Origin: Anaeromyxobacter dehalogenans 2CP-1
GTDB lineage: Bacteria > Myxococcota > Myxococcia > Myxococcales > Anaeromyxobacteraceae
Direction of reading: 5' to 3'
Length of the DNA stretch: 64,000 bases
Assembly: GCF_000022145.1 (NCBI RefSeq)
Contig: NC_011891.1
Span: 3,268,501 to 3,332,500 of the forward strand
The notes under the pieces are model-generated. The model ran no database searches and was not told the origin of the DNA. It worked only from the letters and a program-made list of their open reading frames with translations. Below are positions 39,810 through 60,366 of this stretch, piece by piece (the stretch's first letter is position 1; every line of letters begins with the position of its first letter). The translations under genes and the position numbers were made by a program.

Positions 39810-39945
39810 GGTGGTGCCTCCGGCGCAGCGGGATAACGCGACGCCGGCCACGCCGCAGCGCCCCGCGCGCGGCACGGGCCGGCGGCCGCGTCGTCCGGCG
39901 GCCGTGCGCCCGCGCTGCCGGCGGAGCGGTGCTACGCTGCGGCGC

Positions 39946-40557
39946 ATGAGCGATCCGGTGGTCCTGCGCGCCCCTGGCTACGGTTGAGGACCGGTGGCGG
40001 GCCTCGGCTGAGGCACCGCCCTCGCGCCCGTGCTGGCGCGACTCGACGCGATCCCCGGCGTGCGCGAGAGCCGCGCCGACGCCTCCGGCCGCCACTTCCT
40101 GCTCGAGCTCCGGCCGGGCGCCGACCGGGCCGCGGCGGTGGAGGCGGCCTGCGCCGCGCTGGGCGCGCGGGCGCGCCCGCTCGAGCCCGCCGAAGCGGCC
40201 GCGCAGCTGGAGGCGCGCGGCCGCGGCGATCCCTGGTACGCGGGCGCGGACACCCTCGCGCTCTGCTACCTCGAGGCGCGGGTGCTCGCGGCGAACGCGG
40301 GCCCGGCCGCGGCGCGCGCCGCCGGGCTCGACACCGCCGCGGGCGACGCGATCTGCGAGGCGGCGCGGGCCGTCCTGTTCCAGGTGATGGAGCGGGTGCA
40401 CGGCGAGGGCGGCCGGTCGTCGTCCGGGTGGTTCTACGAGGAGTGGCCGGCGATCGCGGAGGCCATCTCCGGCCGCGCCACCCGGCTGCTCCCGGCGCTC
40501 ACCGACGACGACGCCACGCGGCTGCGTCGGGCGGTCGCGGCGCTCCACGCCCGGTAG
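39946..40557 (+). CDS. Candidate selenoprotein with two in-frame TGA codons and HMA-like domain
   Basis: Read from the ATG at 39946, the frame has TGA at codons 14 and 22, then stays open to 40557 (203 residues with both read as Sec). The two TGA codons sit in an octapeptide repeat: G-Y-G-TGA-G-P-V-A and G-L-G-TGA-G-T-A-L. The downstream part (LARLDAIPGVRESRADASGR) looks like a heavy-metal-associated domain, whose metal-binding Cys residues would fall in this N-terminal region. A hairpin loop follows 18-19 nt after each TGA. If there is no recoding, the protein would start at GTG 40030 (175 residues) and the upstream region would be non-coding. No strong ribosome-binding site supports either start. 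C-terminal function is unknown. Confidence 0.5.
39996..40020 (+). promoter_or_regulatory. SECIS-like hairpin behind first TGA
   Basis: Stem 39996-40005 with 40010-40020 (10 bp with one bulged A at 40015) and tetraloop GGCT at 40006-40009. The loop begins 19 nt after the TGA at 39985-39987. In bacterial selenoprotein mRNAs SelB reads such a loop at a comparable distance. Its 3' arm contains part of the second TGA. Confidence 0.4.
40023..40040 (+). promoter_or_regulatory. SECIS-like hairpin behind second TGA
   Basis: A 6-bp stem (40023-40028 with 40035-40040) and a 6-nt loop CGTGCT that includes a GU pair of bases, starting 18 nt after the TGA at 40009-40011. GC-rich hairpins are frequent in this genome, so this alone is weak evidence. 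Confidence 0.35.
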
Positions 40558-40563
40558 CCCCGC

Positions 40564-42153
40564 TCACGCGTGCGCCGGGGCGTCGGCGCCCGGCGCGAGC
40601 AGCTCGTCCACCTCGGTGCGCAGCAGCCAGTCCCCCGGGAACGCTGCCGCCGCCTCGCGGATCGCGAGCAGGCGCTCGCGCGTGCCGCGCCCGGCCTCGC
40701 GCAGGCGCCGGACCTCGTCGTACAGCGCGGCGAGCGCCGGCGGGAGCGCCTTCGCCTTCCGGGCGCGCGCCCGCGCCTCGCCCTCGCCTGCGGTGAACGT
40801 GCCGTGCTCGCCGAACCAGCGATCCCACGCGCCCGGGTCGGCGGGCCCGCCCGCGACCGAGCGCAGGTCGCGCGAGACGAACAGGAGCGCCCAGGTGGGC
40901 AGGTCGAGCGGCCGGCCCTCGCGCGAGGCGCGGAGGTCCACCACCTCGCCACCGCCCACCGCGAACCCGCGCAGCGCGAGCCCGCCGGGCAGCGCCAGGT
41001 CGAAGGGCCCGCGATCGGGGACCTCCGCGTCGCCGAACGCCACCACCACCTCGCCCGGCCACGGCTTCCCCTCGCCGCGCCCCTCCCGCGAGACGAGCAC
41101 CGGCCCGTCCAGGCGCACCAGCGCGGTCGACAGGCCGGGCGCGAGCTCGGCCGCCGCCGGGATCCGCTCCGCGACCTTGCCGGTCAGCTCCCGCCCGCCG
41201 GACAGCGCCAGGTGGTTCACGCTCCGGGATCGGCGCGCCTCCTCCAGCCCGTGGTCGCCGCCGCGCCTCCAGGAGAGCCCCGCGGTGAACGCGTCCAGCA
41301 CCTCGAAGAGCTGGTCGAAGTCGCGGGCCACGAACAGCTGCGGCTGCATGCGGGTGATGTCGTAGGCCACGTCGGCGCAGCCCGGATCGAGCGGCAGCTT
41401 GCGCACGGCCGGGGTGAGGCAGTGCACCGCCTCGCCGATGGAGGAGAGCAGGCCCGCGCCGTAGATCCTGGGGTCGTCGAGCGTGCCCACCAGGCCGTAC
41501 TCGGCGGTCCACCAGTAGAGCCGGCTCGCGCGCGTGGACTCCGACGCGTAGCGGACGCTGGCCGACGCCGCCCGGAGCCGCGCCTCGGACAGCGCCACCT
41601 CCTCGTCGCTCGCCTCGGGGTCCTCCTTCACGACGGACAGGTTGCGGATGGCCTCGAACACCGCCTGGTCCTCCGCCGAGGCGATGGCGCGGAACCCCAC
41701 CTCGCCGGCGCGCTGCAGGTACTCGGCGTAGGTCGGGTCGGCGATGAACGGCGCGTGGCCGGCGCTCTCGTGGATGATGTCGGGCGCGGGCGTGTACTCG
41801 ATGTGCTCGTGGGTGCGGATGTCCGCGGCGATCGCCAGCACGCGCCGGCTCTGGAGCTCGGTGAACACCGCGGGCGGGATGAACCCGCGGACCGCCACCG
41901 CCGACCACCCCACCCGCGCCAGCTTCCGGTTCATCTCGTCGAGGCTCGGGATCCGCTCCACCTCGATGCCGGTGGCGGCCAGGCCGGCCAGGTAGCGGGG
42001 GTGCGCGCGCGTGGCCAGGTGCGCGGTGAGCCGGCGGAGGACGTGGCGCCAGACCGCGTGGTCGCGCGGCGTGTACGCGGCGTGGTCCTGCGCGACCACG
42101 AAGCGGCGGAGGTGCGGCGGCAGCTCGGCGATGGCGCGCTCGGTGGGACCCAA
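40564..42153 (-). CDS. Aromatic amino acid hydroxylase (phenylalanine 4-monooxygenase-like) with C-terminal extension
   Basis: A 529-residue pterin-dependent hydroxylase. The catalytic domain (about 10-290) carries the iron ligands His128 and His133 in DIIHESAGHAPF and Glu218 in WWTAEYGLVG, with PTYAEYLQRAGEVGF after the His pair. It adds a hydroxyl group to Phe (or Tyr/Trp) using O2 and tetrahydropterin. Residues about 310-529 are an extra domain not present in the roughly 280-residue classic bacterial PhhA. The TTG at 42153 is preferred because GGAGG lies 5 nt upstream; a GTG at 42165 overlaps that site. It follows the ABC-F gene on the same strand. Confidence 0.85.
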   Translation of the reverse strand: MGPTERAIAELPPHLRRFVVAQDHAAYTPRDHAVWRHVLRRLTAHLATRAHPRYLAGLAATGIEVERIPSLDEMNRKLARVGWSAVAVRGFIPPAVFTELQSRRVLAIAADIRTHEHIEYTPAPDIIHESAGHAPFIADPTYAEYLQRAGEVGFRAIASAEDQAVFEAIRNLSVVKEDPEASDEEVALSEARLRAASASVRYASESTRASRLYWWTAEYGLVGTLDDPRIYGAGLLSSIGEAVHCLTPAVRKLPLDPGCADVAYDITRMQPQLFVARDFDQLFEVLDAFTAGLSWRRGGDHGLEEARRSRSVNHLALSGGRELTGKVAERIPAAAELAPGLSTALVRLDGPVLVSREGRGEGKPWPGEVVVAFGDAEVPDRGPFDLALPGGLALRGFAVGGGEVVDLRASREGRPLDLPTWALLFVSRDLRSVAGGPADPGAWDRWFGEHGTFTAGEGEARARARKAKALPPALAALYDEVRRLREAGRGTRERLLAIREAAAAFPGDWLLRTEVDELLAPGADAPAHA

Positions 42154-42293
42154 TCTCGCCTCCACGGGAAATCTGCGACGGCGCGCGGCGCCCGGAAGCT
42201 CCGGACCGGCGACGCCCGCCCGGCGCGGGCCCCCCGGCCCGGACACCCGGCGCGCCCGTGCTGTAATCGCCGGCCCCGCGGAAGCACCGCCCC

Positions 42294-43784
42294 TCACGCG
42301 GCGTCCACCCTCCCCGACGCGATGCGCCAGCGCGACGCGGTGCAGCGCGCCGCCAGCGCCTCGTCGTGCGTGACCAGCAGGAGCGCGCCCGGGTAGGCCG
42401 CCAGCGCGGCCTCGAGCCGCTCCACGGTGGGCAGGTCGAGGTGGTTGGTGGGCTCGTCCAGCACCAGCGCCCAGGCGTGCCGCCCCATGCCCATGGCCAG
42501 GAACAGCTTGCGCGCCTCGCCCGGCGACGGCGCCGCGGAGGCGAGCAGGCGCGCCGGGTCGGTGCCCAGCGCGGCCACGAGCGAGAGGACGCGGCCGCGC
42601 ACCGCCGGCTCCAGCCCGGCCAGCTCCCGCAGCAGCCGCGGCCCCTCGCCGTCCGGCAGCTCCTGGGGCAGGTATAGGAGCCGGTCCGGCGGCAGCGCCG
42701 CGCCGGCGAGCAGCGCCCGGAGCAGCGTGGACTTCCCGGCGCCGTTCGGCCCGGACAGCCACACGCGATCCTCGCGCCCGAGCCGCAGGTGCACGTCGCG
42801 GAGCAGCGGCGCCTCCCCGGCGCGGACCTCGTCCGCCTCGAGCGCGAGCAGCACCGGCCGCGGGGCCCGCTCCCAGCCCAGGAACACCGACCCGCCCAGG
42901 TCCGCGAGCGGCGGCGCCTCGGGCACGTCCTCGCGGGCGCGCTCCGCCGCGGACCGCAGCCGGCGCACGTCCGCGCCGAGGCGGTCCTCGGCCCAGGCCC
43001 GGCGCGTCTTCGCGCCCAGCGTGCGGCCGTCGCTGTCCTTCGGATCGCGCTTCCGGCCGCTGCGCGCCCGGTCCGCCGCGTCGCGCGCGCGCCGCGCGTC
43101 CGCGAGCGCCCGCTCGACCCGGCGCCCCTCCTCCTGCGCGGCCGCCCGCGCGTCCCAGGCCACGCGCGACTCGGCCTCCCACGCCGCGCGCGCCGCGCCG
43201 TAGGGGAGCGCCCAGGCGCGCGCCGCGCCGCGGCCGAGCCGCACGGTCCGCGCCGCCAGCGCCGCCAGCAGCGCGCGATCGTGCGACACGAGCACGCCCG
43301 CGCCGCCGAAGCGCCGGAGCGCGCCGGCGAGCAGCGCCCGCGCCTGCGCGTCGGCGTGGTTGGTCGGCTCGTCGAGGAGCAGCACGTCCGGCTCGGCCGC
43401 CAGGGCCGCGCCCACCTGCCAGCGCTTGCGCTCGCCCGGCGACAGCGTCGTCCAGCGCGCGAGCGCCTCCGGGTCGAGCGCGAGCGCCGCGCGCAGGCGG
43501 CGCGCCTCGCCGTCGTCTCGCGCGGCGAGCGCCGGCACGTCCGGCCCCGGCGCGTCCACCGCCTGCCGGCACAGCACCACCCGCGCCGGCTCCGGCTCGA
43601 GCAGGATCCGGCCCGCGTCGGGTGCGCGCAGGCCCGCGACGAGCTCGAGGAGCGTGGTCTTCCCGGCGCCGTTCTCGCCCACGAGCGCGGTCCAGCCGGT
43701 GGGGAAGACGAGATCGACGGCGTCGAGGATGGGCGCGGCGTCGGCGTGCGAGAACGAGAGCCGCTCGAGGCGGACGGAAGGCAT
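42294..43784 (-). CDS. ABC-F family ATPase
   Basis: A 496-residue soluble protein with two ABC ATPase modules and no membrane domain. Module 1: Walker A GENGAGKTTL (about 36-45), signature LSPGERKR, Walker B VLLLDEPTNHAD. Module 2: Walker A GPNGAGKSTL (about 334-343), a PSPGEARK-type signature, Walker B LVLDEPTNHLDLP. The linker between modules (about 205-275) is charged and helical. ABC-F proteins act on the ribosome, in translation or antibiotic resistance, rather than in transport. The ATG at 43784 follows CCAGGAGCATCGCC. Confidence 0.88.
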   Translation of the reverse strand: MPSVRLERLSFSHADAAPILDAVDLVFPTGWTALVGENGAGKTTLLELVAGLRAPDAGRILLEPEPARVVLCRQAVDAPGPDVPALAARDDGEARRLRAALALDPEALARWTTLSPGERKRWQVGAALAAEPDVLLLDEPTNHADAQARALLAGALRRFGGAGVLVSHDRALLAALAARTVRLGRGAARAWALPYGAARAAWEAESRVAWDARAAAQEEGRRVERALADARRARDAADRARSGRKRDPKDSDGRTLGAKTRRAWAEDRLGADVRRLRSAAERAREDVPEAPPLADLGGSVFLGWERAPRPVLLALEADEVRAGEAPLLRDVHLRLGREDRVWLSGPNGAGKSTLLRALLAGAALPPDRLLYLPQELPDGEGPRLLRELAGLEPAVRGRVLSLVAALGTDPARLLASAAPSPGEARKLFLAMGMGRHAWALVLDEPTNHLDLPTVERLEAALAAYPGALLLVTHDEALAARCTASRWRIASGRVDAA

Positions 43785-59874: not shown

Positions 59875-60366
59875 GTGACTCTCACCATCGATGCGATCGC
59901 TCCTGCAGCATTGGCCGTCGCGGCCGCCTCGGACCTGGCGTCGAGGCGCATCCCGAACGCGCTCTCGCTGACGGTTGCGGTCGCCGGCCTGGCCGCGAGC
60001 ACCGGTCCGCTGCAGGCCGCGTCCGGGCTGGTGGCGTCGGCCATCTGCCTCGCACTGATGCTTCCGCTCTGGCGCCGCCGCGCGATAGGAGGCGGTGACG
60101 TCAAGCTCCTCGCGGCGGCCGCCGCCTGGGTCCGGCTCGAGCACCTCTTCGTGTTCGGCCTCGCTGTGGCGCTGTGCGGGGGCCTGCTGGCGCTGATCGT
60201 GCTCGCCAGGGCGTCCGCGGCCGAACTTCGCCTCGTCCGCGCCAACGCGGTGGCCTCACTCGCGATGTCCAGACCGGCCGTCGCGCGCTCCGCGGGCACC
60301 TCCATCCCGTACGGCGTCGCGATCGCGCTCGGCGCCGCGATCGCGACCTCCGGAGCGCTCTCGTGA
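59875..60366 (+). CDS. cpaA: Prepilin peptidase CpaA/TadV
   Basis: A 163-residue membrane aspartyl protease starting at GTG 59875. The two catalytic Asp residues are in AASDLASRRIPN and GGGDVKLLAA, the pattern of A24-family peptidases of the short TadV type. Four hydrophobic segments are visible. It removes the leader of the Flp prepilins encoded directly upstream. Its stop codon overlaps the start of the TadE-like gene (GTGA), so the pair is translationally coupled. Confidence 0.92.
   Translation: MTLTIDAIAPAALAVAAASDLASRRIPNALSLTVAVAGLAASTGPLQAASGLVASAICLALMLPLWRRRAIGGGDVKLLAAAAAWVRLEHLFVFGLAVALCGGLLALIVLARASAAELRLVRANAVASLAMSRPAVARSAGTSIPYGVAIALGAAIATSGALS

Follow-up and report, generated by a model that had tools for sequence, protein, structure and literature searches.

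The 2026 catalogue of prokaryotic selenoproteins describes 119 families, and its Table 1 holds no U-x7-U motif (PMC13188914). The nearest entry to the gene reported here is the NF041115 metal-binding protein (putative mercuric reductase) selenoprotein, which likewise combines two selenocysteines (Sec, U) with a metal-binding annotation; there the two are spaced as UxxU (PMC13188914). Sec in soft-metal transport is also represented by a MerT-like transport protein (PF02411, C/SxxU) and a cation-transporting ATPase (UxxC), which differ from the present protein in having a single Sec in CxxC-like spacing and in being membrane transporters by annotation (PMC13188914). The bacterial SECIS model used in that work has a loop of 3–9 nt with a G within its first two positions, an upper stem of 4–16 bp, a spacing of 16–37 nt and an MFE ≤ -7.5 (PMC13188914). 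In Anaeromyxobacter dehalogenans, a 2006 survey reported 11 selenoproteins, and the twin-Sec protein is not among them (PMC1794560). On the structural side, the closest described family is HMA (PF00403; CopZ, MerP, NmerA and the metal-binding domains of CopA, ZntA and ATP7B), with which the twin-Sec protein appears to share a β-α-β-β-α fold.

The gene lies in the window, by which we mean the whole 64,000-nucleotide stretch of A. dehalogenans 2CP-1 that was analyzed. An NCBIfam scan of all 18 members matched no selenoprotein model, NF041115 included, and Pfam returned no family at its cut-off and no match to PF02411; a PF00459 hit (E 0.28) was discarded as noise. By motif, NCBIfam and Pfam, the protein falls in none of the 119 catalogued families, seven residues separating its two Sec. 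We judge it to represent a new, uncatalogued bacterial selenoprotein family with SECIS.

Two conserved in-frame TGA codons

39946..40557, forward strand: twin-selenocysteine protein gene, 203 aa when both TGAs are taken as Sec, ATG start, stop TAG at 40555-40557
39985..39987, forward strand: UGA-1, encoding Sec14
40009..40011, forward strand: UGA-2, encoding Sec22, within the loop and 3' arm of the SECIS-1 hairpin
39933..39938, forward strand: -10-like box TACGCT, 7 nt upstream of the ATG

The two TGAs are the sole interruptions of the frame between ATG and TAG. A preliminary description of this DNA had reported them 8 codons apart in the repeated contexts GYG-U-GPV and GLG-U-GTA, and both coordinates and contexts were confirmed. 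It had also proposed that homologues be aligned and searched for TGA or Cys at the two positions. In the resulting set of 18 full-length sequences, from Anaeromyxobacteraceae and one other Myxococcota lineage, both positions are TGA in 18/18 over an identity range of 41–92%, so that the in-frame UGAs are conserved among homologues as in bacterial selenoproteins. Neither Cys nor Ser was found at either position in these 18 sequences, and no Cys form, the customary support for a Sec assignment, was recovered. The closest named relative, from Anaeromyxobacter sp. PSR-1, is 92% identical. Codons 15–17 (Gly-Pro-Val), which lie between the TGAs, change at third positions only (pN 0, pS 0.617), a coding pattern which indicates that this segment is translated. 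Several relatives use TGA as the ordinary stop of the same gene, which argues that TGA has not been reassigned.

An in-frame start codon is present 11–16 codons 5' of UGA-1 in all 18 sequences, and a TANNNT box precedes it by 6–9 nt in 13 of them. Shuffled upstream DNA gave 0.27 such boxes on expectation and at most 3/18 in 5000 trials, a comparison that ignores kinship among the sequences. These starts and boxes point to initiation upstream of both UGAs, and a -10-like box so near the start codon suggests that the twin-Sec mRNA is probably leaderless.

The search for Sec machinery that had been proposed for this genome (chromosome of 5.03 Mb) recovered all four components: the tRNA-Sec gene selC (76.7 bits), selA, selB and selD, the latter itself with an in-frame TGA. 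The host is thereby equipped as a bacterial selenoprotein would require. The twin-Sec gene occurs in 16 of the 24 family genomes and in one genome of another Myxococcota lineage, and all 17 have selA or tRNA-Sec: three incomplete or draft assemblies (G010, G012, G013) have selA without a tRNA-Sec match, and G034 has tRNA-Sec without a selA match. Several family members endowed with Sec machinery lack the gene, in line with its being just one of several selenoproteins. The family has so far been found only in myxobacteria, the scope outside Myxococcota being one shallow scan with short, specific peptides; no relatives were found on plasmids, phages or viral contigs. One further candidate, L055 in G090 (E 3e-4), was rejected: it covers the middle of the profile only, lies on the strand opposite to an aminopeptidase-like gene and was also missed by the C-terminal profile.

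Four of the sequences (L024, L025, L028, L029) form a divergent subfamily with GLA-U-G in place of GLG-U-G and without the EGGR-SSGW stretch. This subfamily adjoins a gene for a sigma-54/NtrC-type regulator, named by eye, in three regions (L060, L067, L072), and both subfamilies are present in G003 and G017.

Hairpins following the two UGAs

39996..40020, forward strand: SECIS-1 hairpin, loop GGCU at 40006-40009, 18 nt past UGA-1; 91% of cells paired, with compensatory changes
40023..40040, forward strand: SECIS-2 hairpin, loop CGUGCU at 40029-40034, 17 nt past UGA-2; 6/6 base pairs invariant in 18 sequences

A loop 18–19 nt after each UGA had been announced; it starts at 18 nt in hairpin 1 and at 17 nt in hairpin 2. 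In the window gene, hairpin 1 has a 4-nt loop with G first, a 5-bp upper stem and a folding energy of -19.0 kcal/mol, and hairpin 2 a 6-nt loop with G second, followed by U, a stem of 6–7 bp and an energy of -12.2 kcal/mol. Checked in this way, as had been suggested, both agree with the published bacterial SECIS model (PMC13188914). There was no Rfam match.

The SECIS-1 loop reads GGCU in the window gene and GGUU in others, GG[U/C]U covering most members, and its stem shows compensatory GC/CG and GC/AU pairs. SECIS-2 is invariant across the 18 sequences and so has no covariation to offer. Taking both hairpins and all 18 sequences, 94.4% of cells pair, a value reached by 0/500 shuffles, and the covariation score was likewise reached by 0/500; related sequences can beat shuffles without any structure, and here sliding the partners abolishes the signal. 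The fold of the single sequence is unexceptional (z about -1). In L025 two of the five upper SECIS-1 pairs are lost, and in several members the 33 nt after UGA-1, when isolated, fold at lowest energy into a different hairpin. Third positions are frozen in codons 18–20 and 23–31 (synonymous identity 0.845 against 0.46 expected for codons 23–31), the remainder of the gene being at 0.56–0.63 against 0.53–0.54 expected, and this freeze coincides with the two hairpins. Conservation, pairing and synonymous identity thus lie far beyond chance.

Formate dehydrogenase genes of the same genome served as controls. The fdhA SECIS (L077, L078) have their loops at the same offset as SECIS-1, beginning at nt 22 from the U of the UGA. 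Unlike these and the E. coli fdhF-type element, SECIS-1 holds the second Sec codon in its loop and 3' arm, and SECIS-2 differs by its CGUGCU loop, which starts one nt closer. Both fdhA loops read GGUCU. Three formate dehydrogenase genes (L076, L077, L078) and selD (L091) of this genome have one in-frame TGA each, which fits the 2006 inventory. The genome inventoried in 2006 probably carries the twin-Sec gene as well.

Established bacterial Sec biology suggests how such an arrangement might be decoded. A ribosome starting on the probably leaderless mRNA would reach UGA-1, where SelB and Sec-tRNA bound to SECIS-1 would insert Sec14. Since UGA-2 is located within the loop and 3' arm of SECIS-1, this hairpin would have to unwind before UGA-2 could be decoded; its unfolding would release the enclosed codon, and SECIS-2 would then direct the insertion of Sec22.

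Two explanations dispense with selenocysteine altogether. The gene could encode an ordinary 175-aa protein starting at GTG 40030, the TGAs then lying in a conserved non-coding RNA leader with regulatory hairpins. A GTG is indeed present at codon 29 in 18/18 sequences, ORF calling with table 11 gives that very frame, and the DNA there is very conserved. Against this stand the coding pattern of codons 15–17, the -10 box placed 6–9 nt before the upstream start in 13/18 sequences, and hairpins set at SECIS distances from the TGAs as in the fdhA of this genome; a start at codon 29 would also leave a confidently predicted fold without β1, its metal loop and one half of helix 1. We hold this reading to be very improbable. 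More improbable still is a UGA that acts as a programmed stop or is decoded by a near-cognate Trp or Cys tRNA. Bacteria in general are known to read through UGA with such tRNAs; here, however, the full Sec machinery is present, SECIS-type hairpins stand at both sites, and relatives employ TGA as the ordinary stop of the same gene. Taken together, the comparative sequence evidence indicates that 39946-40557 very probably encodes a genuine two-selenocysteine protein and that its relatives are, on the same grounds, a genuine Sec-only family of twin selenoproteins.

Predicted domains of the twin-selenocysteine protein

39946..40185, forward strand: N-terminal HMA-like domain, residues 1-80; β-α-β-β-α in the AlphaFold2 model, VIA Z 6–8, profile alignment
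40186..40554, forward strand: C-terminal helical domain (residues 81-203), pLDDT 90 when modelled in isolation, with conserved Q87, W97, E110/R112 and W167-P168

AlphaFold2 run on the 18-row alignment, with Cys substituting for Sec, gave a model at pLDDT 94. In this model, residues 1–80 match HMA domains (ATP7B, ZntA, CopZ, MerP, NmerA) at Z 6–8, a range reached by common folds too. The best match is the ATP7B entry 6a71 (Z 8.1, rmsd 2.2 Å over 69 residues), and the top structural rows are mostly HMA domains. The predicted structure is therefore that of the ferredoxin-like β-α-β-β-α fold, and the HMA resemblance put forward in the preliminary description was borne out; its position was not, as the domain does not lie downstream of the TGAs and includes β1, upstream of Sec14.

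In sequence, matches to HMA are weak (E 0.006–0.04). The best E value against PF00403 is 0.21, in one member, which is below the curated cut-off, and a genome-wide PF00403 search did not have the twin-Sec gene among its matches. Profile alignment sets GLG-U against GMT-C, so that Sec22 falls on the first Cys of GMTCxxC and the second Cys has no counterpart; the GMxCxxC motif of the family is replaced by GLG-U-GTx. The model places Sec14 on an inserted loop. The preliminary description had tied Cys or Sec pairs of the HMA fold to metal binding; here Sec22 replaces the first Cys, and the second Cys is absent. Compared with PF00403 proteins, the twin-Sec protein combines a sub-cut-off score, a lost second Cys and a Sec-bearing inserted loop with an extra helical domain. 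No other Cys is conserved in the protein among the 18 sequences.

The C-terminal domain corresponds to no recognised fold: residues 81–203 alone gave a best Foldseek E of 2.5 and a best VIA Z of 6.1. Within the phylum, the C-terminal profile search found this domain in twin-Sec genes only. Our guess is that it probably holds a partner or substrate.

Possible function of the Sec pair

From the predicted fold, Sec14 and Sec22 would be near each other at an HMA-like metal site, where Sec14, carried on the inserted loop, may compensate for the lost second Cys. Isolated bridge residues occur in the secondary structure of the model at positions 13 and 21, each directly preceding a Sec, and could set the two Sec side by side. 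The model makes it most likely that they work as a pair. The position of Sec22 at the HMA metal site favors a role in binding soft metals or metalloids, and we give about an even chance to a clamp of this kind for an ion of the Hg, Cu(I), Ag, Cd or As class, serving sequestration or hand-over.

The other reading to be weighed keeps the selenoprotein and makes the two Sec a catalytic pair, with diselenide redox chemistry (peroxide, disulfide or metalloid reduction) instead of metal binding. Known selenoproteins are mostly thought to be redox proteins (PMC13188914), and a pair of Sec spaced no more than 8 residues apart could come within reach of one another. With the second HMA Cys missing and no other Cys conserved, a redox pair would have to be Sec-Sec, and this lack of Cys, together with the general habit of selenoproteins, speaks for such chemistry. 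The predicted fold, however, is HMA-like and not thioredoxin-like, and Sec22 occupies the place at which HMA domains bind metal. We regard catalysis as possible, if rather doubtful.

Returning to the metal clamp, we tentatively propose, at slightly under even confidence, an uncatalogued family without a Cys form, in which two obligate Sec build a diselenol metal or metalloid site on an HMA-like scaffold joined to a new helical domain, and whose mRNA, probably leaderless, carries two adjoining SECIS, the second Sec codon lying inside the first SECIS. The family adds a twin-Sec protein that occurs in Sec form alone and has an HMA-like scaffold, and it points, in a group noted for reducing metals, to chemistry of soft metals or metalloids. 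It also supplies a natural example in which one SECIS encloses the codon for another Sec, an arrangement on which the handling of consecutive UGAs by SelB could be tested.

No gene neighbor is conserved across the compared loci, and no operon-based function could be assigned; this suggests that the gene works either by itself or together with partners encoded far away. In five genomes (L058, L059, L062, L063, L064), and not in the others, a gene for a zinc-type alcohol dehydrogenase lies upstream within about 3 kb. In the window, the convergent downstream gene (40564-42300, reverse strand) resembles a biopterin-dependent aromatic amino acid hydroxylase, as named by eye. At 60032-60123 (reverse strand), ARAGORN called a 92-nt tRNA-Asp with anticodon atc; judged by its length and anticodon, this looks like a spurious or degenerate tRNA.
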